DNA of 64,000 nt from a virus. A model generated the notes under the pieces. The model saw only the letters and a list, made by a program, of their open reading frames with translations. It did not search any database and was not told the origin of the DNA. A program made the translations under genes and the position numbers. This document shows, one piece after another, positions 20,169-58,049 of this stretch. Position 1 is the stretch's first letter, and every line of letters begins with the position of its first letter. Location: positions 35,714-99,713 of the IMG/VR virus record IMGVR_UViG_3300021142_000014; one strand, given 5' to 3'.

Positions 20169-20432
20169 TTAAAACCAGTTAATATTAACCAATTCTATAC
20201 CAAGCTCTTCACGCATTGCAACTCGTTCTCTTGGACCTGTTTTAGCCCAATAACCATACTCTTCAAACTTCAAAGCATGGTCTAAACAATCTTTAAAAAC
20301 AGGACAACCATCGCAAATACCAAAAATATATTGTTCATTGGTTCTACCATGTTTTGCATAATAAGCATTGACATCAACACCTTTACAAGCTGCTGCTAAT
20401 TGCCAATCGTAATCAATATATTTACGTTCCAT
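20169..20432 (-). CDS. whiB: WhiB-family iron-sulfur regulator
   Basis: An 87-residue protein from the ATG at 20432 (MERKYIDYDWQLAAACKG). Cysteines C16, C40, C43 and C49 give the C-Xn-C-X2-C-X5-C cluster ligand pattern of WhiB proteins, followed by GYWAKTGPRERVAMREEL, corresponding to their G-W turn and C-terminal basic helix. WhiB proteins carry a 4Fe-4S cluster, bind the principal sigma factor and are restricted to Actinobacteria and their phages, where they can repress host whiB genes and division. No clear Shine-Dalgarno precedes the ATG; a structured 90-nt RNA element lies just upstream. Confidence 0.92.
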   Translation of the reverse strand: MERKYIDYDWQLAAACKGVDVNAYYAKHGRTNEQYIFGICDGCPVFKDCLDHALKFEEYGYWAKTGPRERVAMREELGIELVNINWF

Positions 20433-20460
20433 AATATTTATGTGGAGTAAATAGCTAAGG

Positions 20461-20547
20461 GAAGGGCCTCGGGAGGAGTCAAAGTTGAACACCGACTGCA
20501 ACTCCCGAGGAAGACCAGGCCCTTCATGAGGAGCGGAACGCCCTCAT
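20461..20547 (-). ncRNA. Structured RNA element upstream of whiB
   Basis: The 127-nt gap before whiB is dominated by nested complementarity: GAAGGGCC/GGCCCTTC (20461-20468 with 20518-20525), TCGGGAG/CTCCCGA (20469-20475 with 20502-20508) and AGTC/GACT (20477-20480 with 20494-20497), followed by a second hairpin ATGAGG/CCTCAT (20526-20531 with 20542-20547). It is much more GC-rich than its surroundings and lacks a U-run. It could be a cis-regulatory leader, a processed small RNA or a factor-dependent terminator. Confidence 0.5.
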
Positions 20548-49078: not shown

Positions 49079-51298
49079 TTAGGTAGGTACTACATCTTCC
49101 CCGAGGTTATTCACAGGCTCCGAATAGTCACCTGGCTGGTCATTTTCAGATGTGTACTCCCCAACAACGTCTGGGTTGTTAGGTGTAACATAGAAATTGA
49201 CCTCGTTGACTGGCTCAACCTTGGCAGATTCTACAGATCTTACATTCATTACTAGGCTGAGTCCATAGCGAACCAATCCGACTGTTGTGGCAATTGCTCT
49301 TCTAAGATAAGTTCTACCCTTGGTAGTACCAATTTCATAGCTAACCGTGGCAGTGGCGTATTTTTTACGGTTGTTTGCCTTGGTTACAGTAGCTGATACA
49401 CTCTGCAATACTGAAGCATTCTTATGTGTAACTTTTCCACCACTTACAACCTTACCAATGAATATAACAATATTCTTGGCAATTTTACGGTATGCATGGG
49501 ATTTGATATTAAAACTCAAATTAGTGGATAGAGTCTTGATAGAGGTAGCACGGCGTTTATTGGTTCTAGCAAGGTTTATTCTATTAGCGTTGGCATTCCT
49601 ATTGAACCTAGATAATTTAGTGGTTTTAATAAGCCCTGTAGTTCTAGCAATCGCATAACGATAGAATTGATCAATTTTTCCATCGAATGCAATATTAGTT
49701 GCAGTTACTTTAGCAACTCTAATGAACCTAGAAAATTTCCTGGTAGTAGCAAGATTAATGACTGCTGCCGTTGCTCTTCTTGTGAATCTAAATAATTTGT
49801 TATTTTTGGTTAACCCTGTGAATATAACTTTTATGTTCTTGCCATAGTTTTTGCTGACTTTAACGAGCATTGCACGGTTAGCTGTTGCGAGGCGTCTAGC
49901 TACGACAATTCTTGTTGCAATAGTAATGCCTACTTGGGTTGATTTAGCTACTCTAATAAATCTAGATTGTTTAGTAGTGGTAACCAAATTGGTTGTTCTA
50001 GCTATGGCATAACGGTAGAATCGATCGATCTTTCCATCTCGTGCTATGTTGATAACCATAGAAATGGCTTTTTTAAAAAGAACATTAATTCTATAAGAAT
50101 TTGCTATGTTGATAGCATTAGCTGAACCGGTTCTTATAAACCTACCAATTTTAATAGTTTTGACAATATTGATAGCTATAGCACGGACTCTGGCATTATA
50201 TGTCCTGCTACTCTTTACAAGAGACACCCTAGTAACGGTAACTAATTTGCTTCTAATGTTAGAATTTTTAGATGTAATAAGCGAAACTCTGGTGGCAAAC
50301 GCTTTTTTAAAATTATTGTAAGATTTTGCATTACGAATTAAGAACGTGGATTCAACTAATGCTTGTTTTATACGTTTGATTGTTTTATAGTTATTTGCTA
50401 TGTTTATGCTTGTTATAGTACTTGTTCTAAACCTATTAAAGGTTTTACTAGAATTTACTAGTCTGGTTGCAGTAGCGATAGCACTTCTGTAATATTGATC
50501 AAATGGCTTTAAACTATTTGCTAAAGAGGTTTGCAATGCCTTAGCAGTACGGGTGAATCTAGATCGTTTGACAATGATTACTGATTGTGTATAGGCAGCA
50601 ATCGCTTTTCTAAAGAATTGATCGATGCGGCCTTCGAATGCAAGGTTTACAAGATTAACTATAGAAATTCTAAAATGTCTTGTTATCTTAGTAACTTTTG
50701 CGTAACCAATGCTATTGGCAGTAACACGACGAATACCTGTAAAACGCTTGCTATTTCTTATAACACCAGTATAATTAGCTATTACATCTTTTAGTTTGGA
50801 TCTAATATATCTAGTAACGATAGCTGAGGTTTGTAGAGCAATGGCAAATCTTAATTGGATATAACTTTTTGAGGTTTTTGCTAAATTTGTAGACGTAGAT
50901 GAAGCTTGTTTAATTCTACCGATTTTTGACTGGTTATTAACCAATATTGTGGCCAAAGCGATGGCATTCTTAAAGTAATCAAGGTGCTTCTGGAATCCAT
51001 AACCACCTCTCCAACCAAGTTCATACGCTTCAGTATTGGGTGAATAGAATGCTCTAGTAAAGCTACTCTTAGGTCCTACATAAGGTGGTGGGACATGTGG
51101 ACCTTGACCACCTCTCCAACCTTCTGGTACTTTACCATTTTTGTTCGTGGCAAAATAACCAAATAGAATAGTCTTATAATTACTACTATATTCTGGCGGG
51201 TGTGGTCCACCCTCACCACCAGTCCAACCTTCAATAACCTTATTATTGGTTGAACGATACCCTCTAGTAATATTATTCTTGGGTTTTTTATTGGCCAT
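49079..51298 (-). CDS. Very basic protein with ~25 tandem ~20-residue repeats
   Basis: A 739-residue protein. Three N-terminal repeats of about 30 residues share GWRGG-type motifs (IEGWTGGEGGPHPPEY, PEGWRGGQGPHVPPPY, LGWRGGYGF). From ~110 to ~650 run roughly 25 repeats of 18-22 residues of the form R-F-x-R-x-A-x-A-x-x-x-N-I-A with Lys/Arg-rich turns (e.g. RFIRVAKVTATNIAFDGK). The alternating small/hydrophobic residues suggest a beta-solenoid or helical rod. The C-terminal ~40 residues are acidic. No ribosome binding site precedes the ATG. Likely an elongated appendage or DNA- or surface-binding protein; no family recognised. Confidence 0.7.
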   Translation of the reverse strand: MANKKPKNNITRGYRSTNNKVIEGWTGGEGGPHPPEYSSNYKTILFGYFATNKNGKVPEGWRGGQGPHVPPPYVGPKSSFTRAFYSPNTEAYELGWRGGYGFQKHLDYFKNAIALATILVNNQSKIGRIKQASSTSTNLAKTSKSYIQLRFAIALQTSAIVTRYIRSKLKDVIANYTGVIRNSKRFTGIRRVTANSIGYAKVTKITRHFRISIVNLVNLAFEGRIDQFFRKAIAAYTQSVIIVKRSRFTRTAKALQTSLANSLKPFDQYYRSAIATATRLVNSSKTFNRFRTSTITSINIANNYKTIKRIKQALVESTFLIRNAKSYNNFKKAFATRVSLITSKNSNIRSKLVTVTRVSLVKSSRTYNARVRAIAINIVKTIKIGRFIRTGSANAINIANSYRINVLFKKAISMVINIARDGKIDRFYRYAIARTTNLVTTTKQSRFIRVAKSTQVGITIATRIVVARRLATANRAMLVKVSKNYGKNIKVIFTGLTKNNKLFRFTRRATAAVINLATTRKFSRFIRVAKVTATNIAFDGKIDQFYRYAIARTTGLIKTTKLSRFNRNANANRINLARTNKRRATSIKTLSTNLSFNIKSHAYRKIAKNIVIFIGKVVSGGKVTHKNASVLQSVSATVTKANNRKKYATATVSYEIGTTKGRTYLRRAIATTVGLVRYGLSLVMNVRSVESAKVEPVNEVNFYVTPNNPDVVGEYTSENDQPGDYSEPVNNLGEDVVPT

Positions 51299-51406: not shown

Positions 51407-51826
51407 CTAAAGGCTGTATTTACTAATGATGCAATCTACTTCTTGTTCAATAGTTAAACCATCTTTAATTATAAAATCGACGTAATTTATTGGGTCTTGC
51501 CAAAGGGTATTAGTGTCCTCAAAACGGCTTTTTTTGATACGGTCCATCCAGATAAGAATGTCTGGTTTGCCAAAAGCCTCTCTTGCCTCTTCCGTAGGGC
51601 AAACAAAATCCACAATTATGTTATGACCTTGGCGTTCTAAAAGTCTTGCCATCTCACCAAGCCTGCGTGCTTGTTCAACCCTGTCATCGTTTGAGAACCC
51701 AAGATCTGAATTAATTGTTGCCCTAACCTCATCAGCATTCAAATGGATTACAGGTATTTTTTCTTTTAAACCATTTGCTAGAGCAGTTTTACCCGATCCA
51801 GGAAGCCCAATAATCTGGATAATCAT
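51407..51826 (-). CDS. Adenylylsulfate kinase-like P-loop protein
   Basis: A 139-residue protein with P-loop GLPGSGKT (7-14), LNADEVRATINSDLGFSNDD (29-48) and the R-x-x-x-x-R-L-G-E-M-A-R-L block followed by NIIVDFVCPT, the sequence order of APS kinases (CysC) that turn adenosine 5'-phosphosulfate into PAPS. It is shorter than typical APS kinases at the C-terminus. A related phage nucleoside or polynucleotide kinase cannot be excluded, but the sulfotransferase-like gene 1.9 kb upstream in the same cassette fits a PAPS-supply role. It is coupled by TAATG to the 2OG-oxygenase gene. Confidence 0.65.
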   Translation of the reverse strand: MIIQIIGLPGSGKTALANGLKEKIPVIHLNADEVRATINSDLGFSNDDRVEQARRLGEMARLLERQGHNIIVDFVCPTEEAREAFGKPDILIWMDRIKKSRFEDTNTLWQDPINYVDFIIKDGLTIEQEVDCIISKYSL

Positions 51827-52407
51827 TAATGGTAGAATTTTGTTATTGCCCAGCGCACTCCACTGATAACTGGTTCTACTTGGTGTGCATAAGGAAAGTG
51901 TGCAGGGAAAATAATTAATTGCCCTTTCTTTGGTTTAATTTTTAAATCAAATTCAACAAAATTAATTTCTCCACCTTCGTAATCATTGTTAAGATAATGT
52001 GTTAAAGAAAAAGTTCTTTTTTCAAACATAGCACCACGACCCCAGTCAATATGTGCTTTGTAATGATGACCTATTTCATATTTTAGAATTTGGTATGCAT
52101 CAGATCCGATAGTATCTGTATGGTACTTTTCACAATAATCGTCTACATATGCCTTATAAGCATTATCAAAATGTTCTCTTATACTATCTATTATTTTGTT
52201 CCTACCATCATTGGAAATACCCATAAGCTTTACTTTTCTAGCTTCTGGAATATTTATGTTTTCTCCAACATAGGAATGTGGAGCCCAATTTAGAGAACCA
52301 TTTTTAATATGCTCTTCCCATTCAGGAACCATATTGGAAATATTTTCTCCTACATTGCTATAACTTATTATTCCTGGTGCTAGTATTTCTCTTTTTATTT
52401 TATCCAC
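51826..52407 (-). CDS. Fe(II)/2-oxoglutarate-dependent hydroxylase (prolyl-4-hydroxylase type)
   Basis: A 193-residue protein with KYEIGHHYKAHIDWG (H119-x-D121), KGQLIIFPAHFPYAHQVEPV (H175) and GVRWAITKFYH (R185), the HxD...H...R set of the P4H-like cupin fold that holds iron and 2-oxoglutarate. Such enzymes hydroxylate proline, other residues or nucleobases. It overlaps the APS-kinase-like gene by 1 nt. A Pro-rich virion protein is encoded 4.5 kb upstream (56898-58049), a possible substrate, which is inference. Confidence 0.85.
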   Translation of the reverse strand: MDKIKREILAPGIISYSNVGENISNMVPEWEEHIKNGSLNWAPHSYVGENINIPEARKVKLMGISNDGRNKIIDSIREHFDNAYKAYVDDYCEKYHTDTIGSDAYQILKYEIGHHYKAHIDWGRGAMFEKRTFSLTHYLNNDYEGGEINFVEFDLKIKPKKGQLIIFPAHFPYAHQVEPVISGVRWAITKFYH

Positions 52408-52417
52408 AATTTACCTT

Positions 52418-53113
52418 TTATTTTTTAACTGTAACCATAAACTCAAGAGGTGATTCAAATGTTTCGCTCCACACTGAGTCATCAAGCAATGGTTCTACGT
52501 GTTTAAACATTCTGACTGGAGTAGTTGTTACTAAAACTCCACCCTTTTTTAGAAGAATAGATGATGCGGTTAAAATTTCTTTTATAACATCTAGTCCGTC
52601 TTCGCCACCAGCTACTGACGTTAAATCGTAAGGAAGAGTATCCACTTTTGAAAGATCATCTGGAATGGGTATGCATGGATAACCTGCAAGGATAAAATCG
52701 ACCTGACCATGAAGATGTTTGAGATTATCAATTGAATCCAGAGCACTACACATCACTGGAATGAATTTAGAATTGCTTTTATTTATTTGCTCTTTAAAAC
52801 CATCTGCATTCTTTGTAGTCCAAAAAAATGGCTTTTCATATTTCTCTACACCATAAATTACTGAATTGGGGAATTCTATTGCCATCGCTATGCCGAGCAT
52901 GCCTGATCCAGCACACATGTCTATTACGGTAAGGCCTTCTAATGGATTAATCTTTTCTTTTACAAAAAACAACATGTTTTCAAAAAACACATCAATTCCA
53001 TAAGCCTCTGCATAAACACCCTCACCAATGGCTATTTGCAATCCACGAAACTCGTAAAAGCCGTCATCGTATGCTTTTTGATTTAAGGGCAATTCAAATT
53101 GTTCTCTAGGCAT
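52418..53113 (-). CDS. PrmC/HemK-like methyltransferase
   Basis: A 231-residue protein with GEGVYAEAYGIDVFFENML (30-48), motif I LTVIDMCAGSGMLGIAMA (61-78), GVEKYEKP, and HGQVDFILAGYPCIPIP (135-151) followed by GGEDGLDVIKEIL. The order matches N5-glutamine methyltransferases, whose catalytic motif IV is NPPY; here it reads GYPC. The change suggests a different substrate or chemistry. It lies between two hydroxylase genes in the modification cassette. Confidence 0.65.
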   Translation of the reverse strand: MPREQFELPLNQKAYDDGFYEFRGLQIAIGEGVYAEAYGIDVFFENMLFFVKEKINPLEGLTVIDMCAGSGMLGIAMAIEFPNSVIYGVEKYEKPFFWTTKNADGFKEQINKSNSKFIPVMCSALDSIDNLKHLHGQVDFILAGYPCIPIPDDLSKVDTLPYDLTSVAGGEDGLDVIKEILTASSILLKKGGVLVTTTPVRMFKHVEPLLDDSVWSETFESPLEFMVTVKK

Positions 53114-53123
53114 ATTTTGTCTC

Positions 53124-53699
53124 CTATTTTGATTCTATAGCCCACATAGGCATTATGTCCACAACTAAATTAATCCTTGGTGTTGTTCCATTGTTATCAA
53201 CTGCATGGCGTTTAACATTATTTATCTCCCAGATTTCCCCTGGCTTCATGTTTATAGTTTCGCCATCAACCCATGTTTCACATTGAGGATTAGTTATTAT
53301 CGGTATTTGATGTCTATGTACAGCACTAAAATATTGTCCAAGATCTATATGAATATAGATATTGGTTCCAGCTGGCAATAAGAAATAAAATATTTTAGCT
53401 GCTTTACCATCGCAGTCTTTTTCTAATTTATCGATTATTGGTTTAGTTAATGCCCAAAGTTCTTTATCTTTACATTCAAATTCTGGCGTGAAAGGTGCCG
53501 GATAGAACCAATTCCTGGGGTAATCCTGCACTATTAGAATTTTACCATGTTGATGGTGGGTTAGATTTAACCGTTCATCAAAGTATTTATCTTCATTCTT
53601 GCTCAACAAATAATCCGCAATTTTACCAACGTCTACGTTGCCTTTGTTAATAAAATTAAATGGATTATTGTATTTGCTCCAAACTTTAGTTAATGTCAT
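53124..53699 (-). CDS. Aspartyl/asparaginyl beta-hydroxylase-like dioxygenase
   Basis: A 191-residue protein with NIYIHIDLGQYFSAVHRHQIPI (H117-x-D119), GEIWEINNVKRHAVDNNG (H165) and TPRINLVVDIMP (R175), the iron and 2-oxoglutarate ligands of the AspH cupin fold. The VHRHQIPI block is characteristic of bacterial and phage members. It could hydroxylate side chains of virion or host proteins. It is the second such hydroxylase in the cassette, 1 nt downstream of the sulfotransferase-like gene. Confidence 0.8.
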   Translation of the reverse strand: MTLTKVWSKYNNPFNFINKGNVDVGKIADYLLSKNEDKYFDERLNLTHHQHGKILIVQDYPRNWFYPAPFTPEFECKDKELWALTKPIIDKLEKDCDGKAAKIFYFLLPAGTNIYIHIDLGQYFSAVHRHQIPIITNPQCETWVDGETINMKPGEIWEINNVKRHAVDNNGTTPRINLVVDIMPMWAIESK

Positions 53700-54413
53700 T
53701 TAAGGCTCATAACCAAAAGTTTCAAATTCCCAAGACCATTCTTTTTGTATAGTTTCAAGTTCTTGCTTGCCAAATATATTTTTGTATGAAATGTGTTGTG
53801 GTTTGTAATCGCTTTTTGCTTTATAAGGTATTGTAATTGCTGGCAACCCAACCATTGGTAAAATTTTATTTATTTCGTTTTCTATTCCATTTTCATATCG
53901 TAAAATATGATCAACTAATATTTCACCATTTGATGAATATATCCATTTAGTACTATTAAGGGCATAAAATTCTGGTTCTCTTGCATAAAAAAAACGATAA
54001 TTTAAATAATCTTTTTGCTTTCCAGATAATGCATCCCAGTCATAACCGCCACCATATTCAAATGGATCAGCATCATTGTTTGTTTTTACTCCCCAATATT
54101 CTCTCATTTTATGAAAAAACCATGAAGTTATGATTTCATATGGGTGCCTTACAAAAACAGCAGAGATTGTATTATCTATTTTTTCTTCACCAAAAACTTT
54201 ACAGACTTCTTCATAAGAAGCATGATTCTCAAGCTGTGTATCACCATAAATAAAGTTTCTTGGTATATGGCCATATTGTGATTCATCAATAGGCATCATT
54301 GGCGTGCAGGTAGAGTTTTCTGGAACTAAATTATATAATGATAATTCTAACGAGCTGCCGCCGACTTTATAATTCTTTAACAATAAAAAGTTATTATCGG
54401 GAGAATAGATCAC
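53700..54413 (-). CDS. Sulfotransferase-like protein
   Basis: A 237-residue protein. NYKVGGSSLELSLYNL (14-29) fits the 5'-phosphosulfate-binding loop, and AVFVRHPYEIITSWFFHKM (85-103) fits the R...S 3'-phosphate-binding motif of PAPS-dependent sulfotransferases. The C-terminal YKNIFGKQELETIQKEWSWE... ending FGYEP also follows the family pattern. It would transfer sulfate from PAPS to hydroxyl groups of a glycan, protein or lipid. The APS-kinase-like gene in the same cassette could supply PAPS. Acceptor unknown. Confidence 0.7.
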   Translation of the reverse strand: MIYSPDNNFLLLKNYKVGGSSLELSLYNLVPENSTCTPMMPIDESQYGHIPRNFIYGDTQLENHASYEEVCKVFGEEKIDNTISAVFVRHPYEIITSWFFHKMREYWGVKTNNDADPFEYGGGYDWDALSGKQKDYLNYRFFYAREPEFYALNSTKWIYSSNGEILVDHILRYENGIENEINKILPMVGLPAITIPYKAKSDYKPQHISYKNIFGKQELETIQKEWSWEFETFGYEP

Positions 54414-54685
54414 TACTCACCCTTGTTTATTTTTTCCAATTCAAGGTTGGACAATGTAATAGCACTTTTTATGTCTGTGGCAATACCGACTACTTTTACT
54501 TTACCTGGGTTAGTACCTCTAGAAACAATATAGAATTTATAATTCTTATCTTTTTCTATAAATAGTCTTGTTGCAGTACGTGATTCCAGAAAACGAAGAT
54601 AACGTGTTTGATTTTCATTGTTTTTAGGGATTACCATCGTTTTCCAACGACGCTTTTCATTGTATATTTTATTTTTCTTAAACAT
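54413..54685 (-). CDS. Hypothetical basic 90-residue protein
   Basis: It starts MFKKNKIYNEKRRWKTMVIP, coupled to both neighbours by single-nucleotide overlaps (TAATG upstream). A basic N-terminus precedes a small alpha-beta domain (YKFYIVSRGTNPGKVKVVGI, ATDIKSAITLSNLELEKIN). No family recognised. Confidence 0.6.
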   Translation of the reverse strand: MFKKNKIYNEKRRWKTMVIPKNNENQTRYLRFLESRTATRLFIEKDKNYKFYIVSRGTNPGKVKVVGIATDIKSAITLSNLELEKINKGE

Positions 54686-55398
54686 TAGCTTTCTACCTTA
54701 TAAACTTTTTTACGCCATATATTTTTTCTATACCAACCAACTTGGTAATCATAGCTTCTTTCGGGATGGTTTTCCATACTTCTTTTCCATATCCCTTTCT
54801 TCTTTTTAGCTACCCAGTCTTCTCTTTTGAATGGAATAACTTGAAGAATCGGAGTACCTTTAGGAATAGCACCTTCAAAACCCTTTATAACGCTAAATGG
54901 TATGTTACCGCCATGCATAAAGAAGTCACCGTCTACGATACCAGTGAATGTCATAAATGGTAGATCAAACCTATTAAATGGGTGTGTCAAAATTGCACTA
55001 TATCCTTCAGGAAGGTGGAAAGCATACTGAGTTTGCCAAATAAAATGCTCTTCATCATGACCAGCTGGCGATGGCATTGGGTCTGTAGTCATTGGAGGTC
55101 TATTGCTAATTGGCATTGGTTGTTGTTTGCAACGGATAGATGGTCCATTCTCTGTTTGCTCTACATAAACTTCTTGTGGCAAAGACATATAAAATCCAGT
55201 TGTCATAGCATCTAAGAATGGTATACACATCTTAAGACCCATAGCAGGCATATTGTTATTTGGATCTTTATTATCTAAAAACTTTGGTGTTTTTTTATAC
55301 CAATCAGGTACGATTTCAACCATAGCTCCTATACCCTTTTTTTCTACGGTTGGGGAGCCTTCATAATAAAGTACGTTTTTATTATTCTTTTTAAACAT
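54685..55398 (-). CDS. Conserved phage hypothetical, VPDWYKKT family, copy 1
   Basis: A 237-residue protein with MVEIVPDWYKKTPKF, MGLKMCIPFLDAMTTGFYMS, VEQTENGPSIRC, GHDEEHFIWQTQYAFHLPEG, LTHPFNRFDLPFMTFTGIVD, GFEGAIPKGTPILQVIPFKR and WYRKNIWRKKVYK. It is clearly paralogous to the next gene (55398-56078), block for block. I recall similar proteins in marine and freshwater phages with T4-like features, without known function. The strand-rich middle suggests a cupin or jelly-roll fold. Confidence 0.7.
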   Translation of the reverse strand: MFKKNNKNVLYYEGSPTVEKKGIGAMVEIVPDWYKKTPKFLDNKDPNNNMPAMGLKMCIPFLDAMTTGFYMSLPQEVYVEQTENGPSIRCKQQPMPISNRPPMTTDPMPSPAGHDEEHFIWQTQYAFHLPEGYSAILTHPFNRFDLPFMTFTGIVDGDFFMHGGNIPFSVIKGFEGAIPKGTPILQVIPFKREDWVAKKKKGIWKRSMENHPERSYDYQVGWYRKNIWRKKVYKVES

Positions 55399-56078
55399 TA
55401 TTTATACACCTTCTTCTTCCAGAAGTTTTTTCTATAATGACCATTCAACAACTCAGATATAGGAGCTTTCACAGTAGTATCAGCTATGTCCCAAAGACCT
55501 TTTGTAGATTTAGCTACCCATTCTTCTCTTTTAAATGGTATCACTTGAGCTATAGGGGTGCCTTTAGGTATTTCACCTTCAAAACCTTTTTTAATAAAAA
55601 AAGACATGTTAGCACCGGGCATTACATAATCGTCTACCACCGCACTGCTTGTTAAGAATGGTAGATCCCAACGATTCAATGGGTGTGTGTAAAGTAATGA
55701 ATAACCATCAGGAGGTCTTACAGTTATGTTAGCAAACCAAATAAAATGTTCATCTTCATATCCCTCTGGGACTGGTGATGGATCAGTTACTGCACTTGGC
55801 CTATTGTTAACGACAGGTTCTTTTGGATTATTATAACGTATAATTACACCGTTTTCTGTTCTTTGAACATATACACTTTCTTCAAGAACTATGGTGTAAC
55901 CGAGCGTAAGGCTTTCAAGGAATGGGATGCAATGTTTAACTCCAGGCCATTCTTGACCATTTTCGTCAGTTACCCATCTTTTTGTTTTTTTGTACCAATC
56001 AGGTACAACGGAAAGCATAGGCCTCATGTGATCTATAAAACCATTACGACTTTCGTATTTTATGATTTGACGCGACAT
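55398..56078 (-). CDS. Conserved phage hypothetical, VPDWYKKT family, copy 2
   Basis: A 226-residue protein paralogous to its downstream neighbour: SVVPDWYKKTKRW, GVKHCIPFLESLTLGYTIVL, VQRTENGVIIRY, YEDEHFIWFANITVRPPDGY, YTHPLNRWDLPFLTSSAVVD, GFEGEIPKGTPIAQVIPFKR and HYRKNFWKKKVYK line up in order. It starts with TAATG. Tandem copies with full conservation of the core suggest both are functional. Function unknown. Confidence 0.7.
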   Translation of the reverse strand: MSRQIIKYESRNGFIDHMRPMLSVVPDWYKKTKRWVTDENGQEWPGVKHCIPFLESLTLGYTIVLEESVYVQRTENGVIIRYNNPKEPVVNNRPSAVTDPSPVPEGYEDEHFIWFANITVRPPDGYSLLYTHPLNRWDLPFLTSSAVVDDYVMPGANMSFFIKKGFEGEIPKGTPIAQVIPFKREEWVAKSTKGLWDIADTTVKAPISELLNGHYRKNFWKKKVYK

Positions 56079-56404
56079 TACTCTTCGTCTTCCTCTTCCT
56101 CATTAACCTCTAGTTCTTGTTCAACGGCTTGCCATTTACCTATTGGACAGAATGCATTAGGTAATTTTACTTTTCCAGGCATAAAGCAACCACATTCTTT
56201 ACATAGCATGGATGACTTACGAATGCGTGGACAATCTTTGCAAATTGCAAGGCGTTCACTAGCTAATTCGTCTTCTACTCTACCAATTTTTTTATTGAAT
56301 AGATCCCATGGTCTAGCTGGGCGTTGTTCAGATGTTTCTTCGGAAGTATTCTTTAGATTTTCTAAATATAATTCCCAAGGCGTTTGCTTTGGTTGTCCGT
56401 TCAT
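56078..56404 (-). CDS. Zinc-binding protein, CKxCP/CKECGCFM family
   Basis: A 108-residue protein. After a polar N-terminus with two P-W-[ED]-L motifs (TPWELYLENL, RPWDLFNKKI), residues 54-90 read LAICKDCP, MLCKECGCFMPGKVKL and AFCPIGKW, six cysteines typical of small phage zinc proteins (seen widely in cyanophages; DUF6171-like). The tail is acidic. It may bind nucleic acid or modify the host polymerase. Role unproven. Confidence 0.65.
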   Translation of the reverse strand: MNGQPKQTPWELYLENLKNTSEETSEQRPARPWDLFNKKIGRVEDELASERLAICKDCPRIRKSSMLCKECGCFMPGKVKLPNAFCPIGKWQAVEQELEVNEEEEDEE

Positions 56405-56406
56405 TT

Positions 56407-56640
56407 TTAACGGTATTCACTCGCAAATTCACCGGCTTCTTCATCGTAACCAAGACCAACTTGGATAAAAGCGCCGCGTTCATGATCTGTAATATCAATT
56501 ATTATTGGTTGGCTTGTCATAATTGCTGCATTTCTAGCACTGCAACTTTGAACATGAACTACTTGACCATCAAGGATAAATGCCAAACGGTTAGTAGTAT
56601 TGATAGCTATCATTGGATCTTCTGGGATTGGAATTGCCAT
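56407..56640 (-). CDS. Small paralogous protein, copy A (77 residues)
   Basis: The product has NRLAFILDGQVVHVQSCSAR (17-36) and a closing GLGYDEEAGEFASEYR. Block by block it matches the next gene (56642-56881), and more weakly the 65-residue protein at 48847-49044. The shared plan is a beta strand with LD, a Cys-Ser turn, a helix and a Y-F ending. Function unknown. Confidence 0.6.
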   Translation of the reverse strand: MAIPIPEDPMIAINTTNRLAFILDGQVVHVQSCSARNAAIMTSQPIIIDITDHERGAFIQVGLGYDEEAGEFASEYR

Positions 56641-56641
56641 A

Positions 56642-56881
56642 TTAACTCCTATTATTTTCTAGGCTTTCACCATCAAAATCAGTGAAAGTATCGGTAGCTA
56701 CATCATACTGAAATCCTACCGGTATGTCAAGTCCTGTTATGTTTCTTGCTATTGGCTTACTTAGTAATAAAGCTGCAAATCTCTCTGAGCATTCAATTAC
56801 TTCTTGTACAAAACCATCAAGAATAAAAGCAATCCGATACATAGGAGGCGTATTATTTAGGTCTTCTTCTTTGTTTGTCAT
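56642..56881 (-). CDS. Small paralogous protein, copy B (79 residues)
   Basis: It contains YRIAFILDGFVQEVIECSER (15-34) and ALLLSKPIARNITG, with the ending VGFQYDVATDTFTDFDG. It is a tandem duplicate of the preceding copy A. The starts and stops are spaced by 1 nt. Function unknown. Confidence 0.6.
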   Translation of the reverse strand: MTNKEEDLNNTPPMYRIAFILDGFVQEVIECSERFAALLLSKPIARNITGLDIPVGFQYDVATDTFTDFDGESLENNRS

Positions 56882-56897: not shown

Positions 56898-58049
56898 TTA
56901 TATCGCTGAGAATGGTCCTACAGTACTACCCTGGGTGGCACTTCCGCCAACCGGTGAATCAATGATACCAACACTAACATTACCAGTTGGAGCAGTCTGA
57001 TTACTAGACAAAGTTCCCAGAGATGTTACCAATGCAGAATCACTAAAGGCAGTTGCTGTAATATTGCTGTTAGTAGTAACGATTTGGATAGAGTTAATCT
57101 GAGCTGTTGTGCTATTTGAAGGTCCTTGTAGAACTCCTGTTGCAATTGTAGTGATTGTACCACCTACAGATTGTAGCAAGCTTAGCTGGTTATAGTACTG
57201 TGTTGTGTAGTTGGCTGTGTATCCAGCGCAAGCACCATATGACGAGCAAGAATACGATGTACATTGCGTAGCGTATCCTCCACAAGCTGTTCCATAACTT
57301 ATGCAGGGTGGGAAATACGGTGGAAAGAATGGTGGTGGGAAATACGGTGGAAAGAATGGTGGTGGGAAGTAAGGTGGGAAGAATGGAGGAAAGAATGGTG
57401 GAAAGAATGGTGGTGGGAAGTAAGGTGGGAAGAATGGAGGAAAGAATGGTGGAGGTGGTGGTGAGTAGCTAAGGTTGTTTGGTCTTGGAATTTCAACAGG
57501 TCGAGTATTTGGTGAATCTTCTTTTGTACGACGCTTTCGCTTAGGCAACGTTGTAGTTGCTCCCTTAGCATTTGGATCACCATAAGCACTGCTGTAACCA
57601 TAACCTGTGCAAACAGTGTAATAGCTTTGACACACTGGTCCATAGCCTGCGCATGTATAACCTGTGCAAGGATATCCACCAGTACAAGTATAGCTTGTTA
57701 TGTTATTTTGTGAGTAAGCATTGTTAACAACTGCCCACCAGTTACCAGTACTTGTCCACCAAAAAGCAATTCCAGTACCGTTTGAAGCACTCTTCAACGT
57801 CATTGTTGCGCTAGCTTTGTAAGGTATTGTAGCTAATGGGTAAGAACTAGCTGCTGTTGATGTAGTTGCTGATCCGCTTGTTGCATACCATACACCAGTT
57901 TGTGCAACCCAAAGTTGTCCACCTGGGACAGCTGTTCCTAATGATCCTGATGTTGTTCTTGCAAAAAGGTCACTAATAGGTGCTAAAGATCCTGATAGGA
58001 GCCCATAAGCACGGGCTGCAAGGTCACTTAGTGCTGAGAATAATGGCAT
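56898..58049 (-). CDS. Jelly-roll fibre protein interrupted by Pro/Tyr/Cys-rich insert
   Basis: A 383-residue protein. Residues 25-110 (SDLFARTTSGSLGTAVPGGQ, LWVAQTGVWYATSG, GIAFWWTSTGNWWAVV) and 285-383 (YYNQLSLLQSVGGTITTIAT, ITATAFSDSALVTSLG) look like the two halves of one laminin-G/concanavalin-like beta sandwich. The insert holds a Cys/Tyr/Gly-rich block (119-152: YTCTGGYPCTGYTCAGYG), a KRKRR basic patch, about 50 residues of PPFFPPYFPP-type repeats (197-248) and a second Cys/Tyr block (249-280). Probably a receptor-binding appendage whose insert forms a rigid, disulfide-tied knob. Possibly a substrate of the nearby hydroxylases (inference). Confidence 0.65.
   Translation of the reverse strand: MPLFSALSDLAARAYGLLSGSLAPISDLFARTTSGSLGTAVPGGQLWVAQTGVWYATSGSATTSTAASSYPLATIPYKASATMTLKSASNGTGIAFWWTSTGNWWAVVNNAYSQNNITSYTCTGGYPCTGYTCAGYGPVCQSYYTVCTGYGYSSAYGDPNAKGATTTLPKRKRRTKEDSPNTRPVEIPRPNNLSYSPPPPPFFPPFFPPYFPPPFFPPFFPPFFPPYFPPPFFPPYFPPPFFPPYFPPCISYGTACGGYATQCTSYSCSSYGACAGYTANYTTQYYNQLSLLQSVGGTITTIATGVLQGPSNSTTAQINSIQIVTTNSNITATAFSDSALVTSLGTLSSNQTAPTGNVSVGIIDSPVGGSATQGSTVGPFSAI
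57308..57458 (-). repeat. Tandem repeats coding PPFFPPYFPP units
   Basis: About 150 bp of near-identical short units (GGTGGGAAATACGGTGGAAAG and variants, each with AATGGT) run inside the fibre gene, coding for repeating Pro-Pro-Phe/Tyr-Phe. Unit boundaries differ in small insertions and G/A changes, suggesting slippage-driven length variation. Confidence 0.8.

Follow-up and report, generated by a model that had tools for sequence, protein, structure and literature searches.

A predicted concanavalin-A-like domain interrupted by a hypervariable cysteine-rich insert in a family of candidate phage adhesins

The P0001 locus and its neighbourhood

The window, the whole stretch of 64,000 nucleotides analysed here, belongs to a 99.7-kb virus record (IMG/VR IMGVR_UViG_3300021142_000014) with tail sheath, baseplate J and whiB genes. 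Within it we identified P0001, an intact open reading frame with an ATG start codon preceded by GGAG (Table 1). The ordered layout described in an earlier note made from the sequence, which comprises a flank, a Cys/Tyr/Gly block, a basic patch, a proline-phenylalanine run, a second block and a second flank, is present in full, whereas the cysteine counts of six and five to six given there were wrong, as each block contains five. P0001 is not a chance frame because its close relatives L001–L003 share this layout, and approximately 50 distinct proteins keep both flanks with a Cys-rich insert at this place.

Table 1. Features of P0001 and neighbouring genes (window coordinates).
Feature	Position	Strand	Basis
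Tail-fibre-like protein, 1723 aa, upstream; probable partner of P0001	58075..63246	(-)	Weak YadA-head, coiled-coil and tail-needle matches
Whole gene P0001, predicted split concanavalin-A-like domain protein, 383 aa	56898..58049	(-)	ORF and family
Predicted N-terminal beta-sandwich half, residues 25-108, ending in conserved GxxFWxTxxNWW strand	57726..57977	(-)	AlphaFold pLDDT 80-95; family conservation
Outgoing strand of predicted beta-ribbon, residues 104-123	57681..57740	(-)	AlphaFold2 model
First Cys/Tyr/Gly block, residues 122-147; 5 Cys (122, 128, 133, 140, 147)	57609..57686	(-)	Sequence
Basic patch LPKRKRRTK, residues 168-176 (KRKRR, 170-174)	57522..57548	(-)	Sequence
PPFF/PPYF run, residues 197-248; 52 residues, P/F/Y only	57306..57461	(-)	Sequence
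Second Cys/Tyr/Gly block, residues 249-274; 5 Cys (249, 256, 263, 268, 274)	57228..57305	(-)	Sequence
Returning strand of predicted beta-ribbon, residues 276-295	57165..57224	(-)	AlphaFold2 model
Predicted C-terminal beta-sandwich half, residues 285-383	56901..57197	(-)	AlphaFold pLDDT mostly 80-94; family conservation
AFILDGxV protein, 79 aa, downstream, in conserved cassette	56642..56881	(-)	Neighbourhoods of relatives
Second AFILDGxV small protein, 77 aa	56407..56640	(-)	Sequence
DUF6171-like small protein, 6 Cys, conserved downstream neighbour	56078..56404	(-)	Just under Pfam cut-off; neighbours of relatives

The stop codon of the 1723-aa fibre-like gene lies 25 bp ahead of the P0001 start. 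In most mapped loci the family gene is likewise found immediately downstream of a tail-fibre gene, and the fibre genes preceding the relatives of P0001 carry Mtd_N domains, collagen repeats or phage fibre repeats, or match PHROG tail fibres. The exceptions are L070 and the second copy in L112, which follow a glycosyltransferase-like gene. Two viral loci, L105 and L112, each hold two different copies of the split-domain gene; these copies are divergent (L105 5293-7583 and L112 1-7143), and one pair has a small AFVIDGEVV gene between its members. The family gene is followed by a small cassette encoding an AFVIDGEVV protein, a DUF6171-like protein and a phrog_7084-type protein. Adjacent AFILDGxV proteins, as at window 56407-56881, are conserved immediately downstream of the family gene in many viruses and are possible chaperones or assembly factors.

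Elsewhere in the window, downstream of the fibre region, positions 51407-55398 carry a cluster of 2OG-Fe(II) oxygenase, methyltransferase-like, sulfotransferase-like and kinase-like genes. Positions 49079-51298 encode a 739-aa basic protein in which a degenerate unit of about 30 residues (xxFxRxAxAxxxNLAxxxK) recurs many times, and for which Pfam and PHROG gave no match. We also identified a WhiB-family regulator at 20169-20501 (Pfam E 2.3e-12). The whiB gene serves as a marker of actinobacterial hosts in freshwater metagenomes (PMC6802176), and its presence on this phage points to an actinobacterial host.

Fold of the flanks and position of the insert

Approximately 50 distinct uncultured-virus proteins form an undescribed family with P0001; individual scans of IMG/VR returned up to about 60 loci, and together yielded 50 distinct complete proteins. 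In every member an insert of 60 to 324 residues directly follows a strand of the FWVTDANNWW type. No family members were found by tblastn and blastn in 50,697 cultured-phage records, the family had no match in Pfam or PHROGs, and a scan of GTDB contigs returned no relative. Matches of the family member L047 in cultured phages were discarded as corresponding to its N-terminal VKVGGxWK repeats, with the exception of a LamG-like domain in a Microcystis phage. P0001 is not an isolated oddity: the layout without the PPFF run is common and therefore represents a family.

The AlphaFold2 model of P0001, calculated with a 33-sequence family alignment, showed high confidence for residues 25-123 and 276-383 (block means mostly pLDDT 80-95), with strands 104-123 and 276-295 paired as one hairpin that enters the insert. 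The insert itself was poorly modelled (pLDDT 33-58). The relative L035, which has a 63-residue insert, was modelled as a single domain (pLDDT 87.1, pTM 0.81) with its ribbon strands at residues 91-111 and 150-170. In both models the predicted two-stranded ribbon spans 20-21 residues and projects the insert; across the two, the inserts remained at pLDDT 33-65 and no knob fold was visible.

Structural comparison using Foldseek aligned the L035 model with legume lectins, CBM66 and the CBM2 of the phage J-1 Dit over approximately 280 alignment columns, with a probability of 1.00 and a best E value of 1.2e-3, none being below 0.001. Among predicted viral structures, P0001 matched six uncharacterised uncultured-phage proteins with E values of up to about 1e-10. 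At the sequence level, P0001 and its joined flanks gave nothing usable against Pfam, PHROGs and PDB sequences, and did not reach the Pfam cut-offs for LamG and 3keto-disac_hyd. The Microcystis phage Mwe-JY05 protein P0007 possesses a C-terminal LamG-like domain that lacks the insert and shows a weak 3keto-disac_hyd match, and the joined-flank profile aligned to this domain unbroken over the junction (hmmsearch, 23 bits, single target). No further insert-less relatives were found in a dedicated scan.

Based on these models, the reading of residues 25-123 and 276-383 as a single concanavalin-A-like (LamG-like) beta-sandwich in two parts is supported. The AlphaFold2 models of P0001 and the short-insert L035 agree on a single split domain, as the earlier note had proposed. 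Across homologues the insert varies between 60 and 324 residues at one hairpin and both flanks remain together, and the insert-less Mwe-JY05 domain aligns across the junction. The predicted models show the two-sheet jelly-roll sandwich of the concanavalin A-like superfamily, which is a better label than LamG-like. The joined flanks are predicted to share their fold with members of this superfamily such as legume lectins, CBM66, the J-1 Dit CBM2 and 3-keto-disaccharide-hydrolase/LamG-like domains. The P0001 family differs from them in that one hairpin has grown into a ribbon bearing the 60-324-residue Cys-rich insert, and adds a new family to those with the concanavalin-A-like fold.

Cysteine parity and divergence of the insert

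Cysteine makes up 11.1% of the insert and about 0.1% of the scaffold across the family. The number of insert cysteines ranges from 4 to 32. Even counts were found for 50/50 distinct sequences, and for 36/36 once redundancy was removed. As a control we used the remaining insert residues, since a set made from other ORFs of these loci was biased (a minimum of four Cys) and contaminated with shadow ORFs; Tyr, Gly, Ser, Thr, Asn, Pro, Ala, Phe, Gln and Trp were each even in only 15-31 of the 50 inserts. At least 28 changes in cysteine number are needed on the scaffold tree and all are even, an outcome with a chance of 0.5^28 = 3.7e-9 if odd and even changes are equally likely. Clustering the inserts at 40-80% identity gave 19-38 independent groups, all with even counts. 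The whole-protein count is odd in the clade of L039, L049 and L061, where a scaffold strand carries one additional cysteine. Cysteines are also lost in a coupled manner: compared with its relative L038, L037 is missing four ribbon cysteines, two on the N side and two on the C side, but retains the central CGPDGxCNCYxCDGGGCIGNCTFV module. Strict even parity together with coupled loss indicates a defined pairing, and from these sequence patterns we strongly infer that all insert cysteines pair as disulfides.

Cysteines in such numbers could instead bind metal (zinc, copper or iron-sulfur) in a module serving fibre folding or assembly. CxC, CC and CxxC spacings are common in the insert, the Cys-rich DUF6171-like gene lies within the same cassette, and phage proteins are made in the reducing cytoplasm. 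However, the cysteine number is 2 mod 4 in 20 of the 36 members and 0 mod 4 in 16, and four-Cys metal sites are therefore disfavoured. The insert is also almost without His (0.4%) and contains few Asp (1.8%) and Glu (1.0%) residues, and fixed ligand sets are unlike its paired, dispersed and hypervariable cysteines. We thus regard a metal-binding module as distinctly improbable.

The insert diverges much faster than the scaffold. Scaffold and insert identities between near relatives were 95/55, 99/81, 99/84, 86/42 and 81/39%. L038 and L045 share 92-97% DNA identity over much of the scaffold and 31% in the insert core; the L038 core is closer to that of L037 (70%), even though similarity to the L037 scaffold is just 50-65% or so. 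This single case suggests, from sequence comparison, exchange of insert modules between lineages. Rapid divergence on a constant scaffold suggests that the insert makes specific, changing contacts.

Tentaclins and Mtd are phage C-type-lectin receptor-binding proteins diversified by diversity-generating retroelements (PMC10743442). The P0001 family would resemble them in combining a constant fold with a receptor-binding surface that varies, and Mtd_N domains occur on the upstream fibres of its relatives. These domains and the hypervariable Tyr/Ser/Asn/Gly-rich receptor-type loop would be in keeping with the insert being a retroelement target varied by error-prone retro-copying. We rejected this reading, which appears very remote: RVT_1 matches were present in 0/14 virus records, the window's own included, in a set of records that may be incomplete, and the variation concerns whole modules, length and Cys pairs, not point changes in a fixed-length repeat. 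The family further differs from tentaclins and Mtd in its fold and in the variable length and cysteine content of its insert.

In P0001 the insert, which is rich in Cys, Tyr, Gly and Ser, additionally contains the PPFF run. The corresponding DNA is an imperfect tandem repeat at 57307-57453, and the length of the run differs between relatives of P0001. PPFF/PPYF runs were also identified in more than 100 other viral contigs (L118-L237, e.g., L123, L137, L173 and L195), mostly as C-terminal tails following fibronectin-III-like (FN3-like) sequence, and the idea that the run is specific to P0001 was dropped. We know of no description of an element of this kind. Such tails often finish in PPxFK, sometimes followed by apparent Hint/intein-type (CINEDTLILT) or S74-type (RLKENVE) segments. 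A 553-aa viral protein (L008/L176) alternates PPFF runs with small Cys-containing repeat units and has 22 cysteines, an even number. Since the runs occur in more than 100 unrelated viral proteins, that of P0001 may be an independent element and not a designed stalk, and in the clade to which the window belongs this widespread element appears to have become nested inside the knob. If all cysteines of the two blocks (5 + 5) are paired, at least one disulfide must cross between the blocks. The suggestion in the earlier note that the blocks tie the base of a polyproline stalk is no more than consistent with these counts, and the role of the PPFF run as a stalk is the weakest element of the interpretation.

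The recurrence of PPFF runs as C-terminal tails in many viral proteins, along with the low complexity and low model confidence of the insert, would also fit a sticky, disordered decoration or anchor of the virion, in which Tyr, Cys and Phe provide adhesive, non-specific attachment to surfaces or virion proteins. This explanation is rather unlikely, as it sits poorly with the defined pairing implied by strict parity and coupled cysteine loss, and with the specific contacts suggested by the divergence of the insert.

A proposed disulfide-knob adhesin

The reading we prefer, and consider fairly probable, is that the P0001 family represents tail-fibre-associated adhesins in which a concanavalin-A-like sandwich presents a ribbon-borne, fully disulfide-paired and variable knob for receptor contact. 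The adhesin role is proposed because most mapped loci have a tail-fibre gene immediately ahead of the family gene. In the proposed mechanism, the hairpin after the NWW strand would be drawn out into a ribbon bearing the insert, which is variable in length and rich in Cys, Tyr, Gly, Ser, Thr and Asn. Disulfides probably form once the protein leaves the reducing cytoplasm at lysis, which would lock the insert covalently into a knob whose hydrophobic core is small. Judging from gene position, this knob would be the receptor-contact surface at the fibre tip; it would diverge and be swapped much faster than the scaffold, so that each lineage would show its own knob while the platform stays constant. 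In the clade of the window, this knob would be divided into two five-Cys blocks by the basic patch and the PPFF run, and a cross-block disulfide, most simply C122-C274 at the ribbon end, may close the base of a protruding proline-rich loop.

This arrangement recalls two characterised systems. In T-even phages gene 38 follows the fibre gene. The gp38 adhesins of T2, S16 and PP01 are fibre-tip receptor-binding proteins with hypervariable loops on a constant scaffold, built as a polyglycine-II sandwich with glycine-rich motifs (PMC12892980). The P0001 family is similar to gp38 in the position of its gene directly after a long fibre gene and in its hypervariable segments on a constant scaffold, but its sandwich is predicted to be concanavalin-A-like and its variable part is Cys-rich. 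The bovine ultralong CDR-H3 extends from a beta-sandwich through a two-stranded stalk to a hypervariable, disulfide-rich Tyr/Gly/Ser knob with its cysteines in pairs (PMC6440498). The predicted beta-ribbon stalk of the P0001 family matches this design, and the even parity of its insert cysteines would imply a knob paired in a similar way. Fold and organism are unrelated, so that the likeness is one of analogy only, and the inserts of the phage family reach greater lengths (as many as 324 aa, and as many as 32 Cys). The family is thus analogous to gp38 and ultralong CDR-H3 and a member of neither.

Disulfide-rich hypervariable recognition knobs occur in animals, in antibodies and toxins. To our knowledge, phages are not known to use them systematically for receptor binding, since their proteins are synthesised in a reducing cytoplasm. 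We tentatively advance, as a nearly balanced possibility, that aquatic tailed phages use a design like that of the cow ultralong antibodies, with exchangeable, hypervariable and fully disulfide-bonded knobs for host recognition, borne by a beta-ribbon on a constant lectin-fold platform and diversified by module exchange and paired gain and loss of cysteines and not by retroelements. The parity signature offers a test for disulfide pairing that uses sequence alone and is applicable to other viral adhesins. The family sits in viruses of uncultured aquatic bacteria, for which there is very little knowledge of host recognition, and would constitute a naturally occurring collection of stable knobs that share a scaffold.
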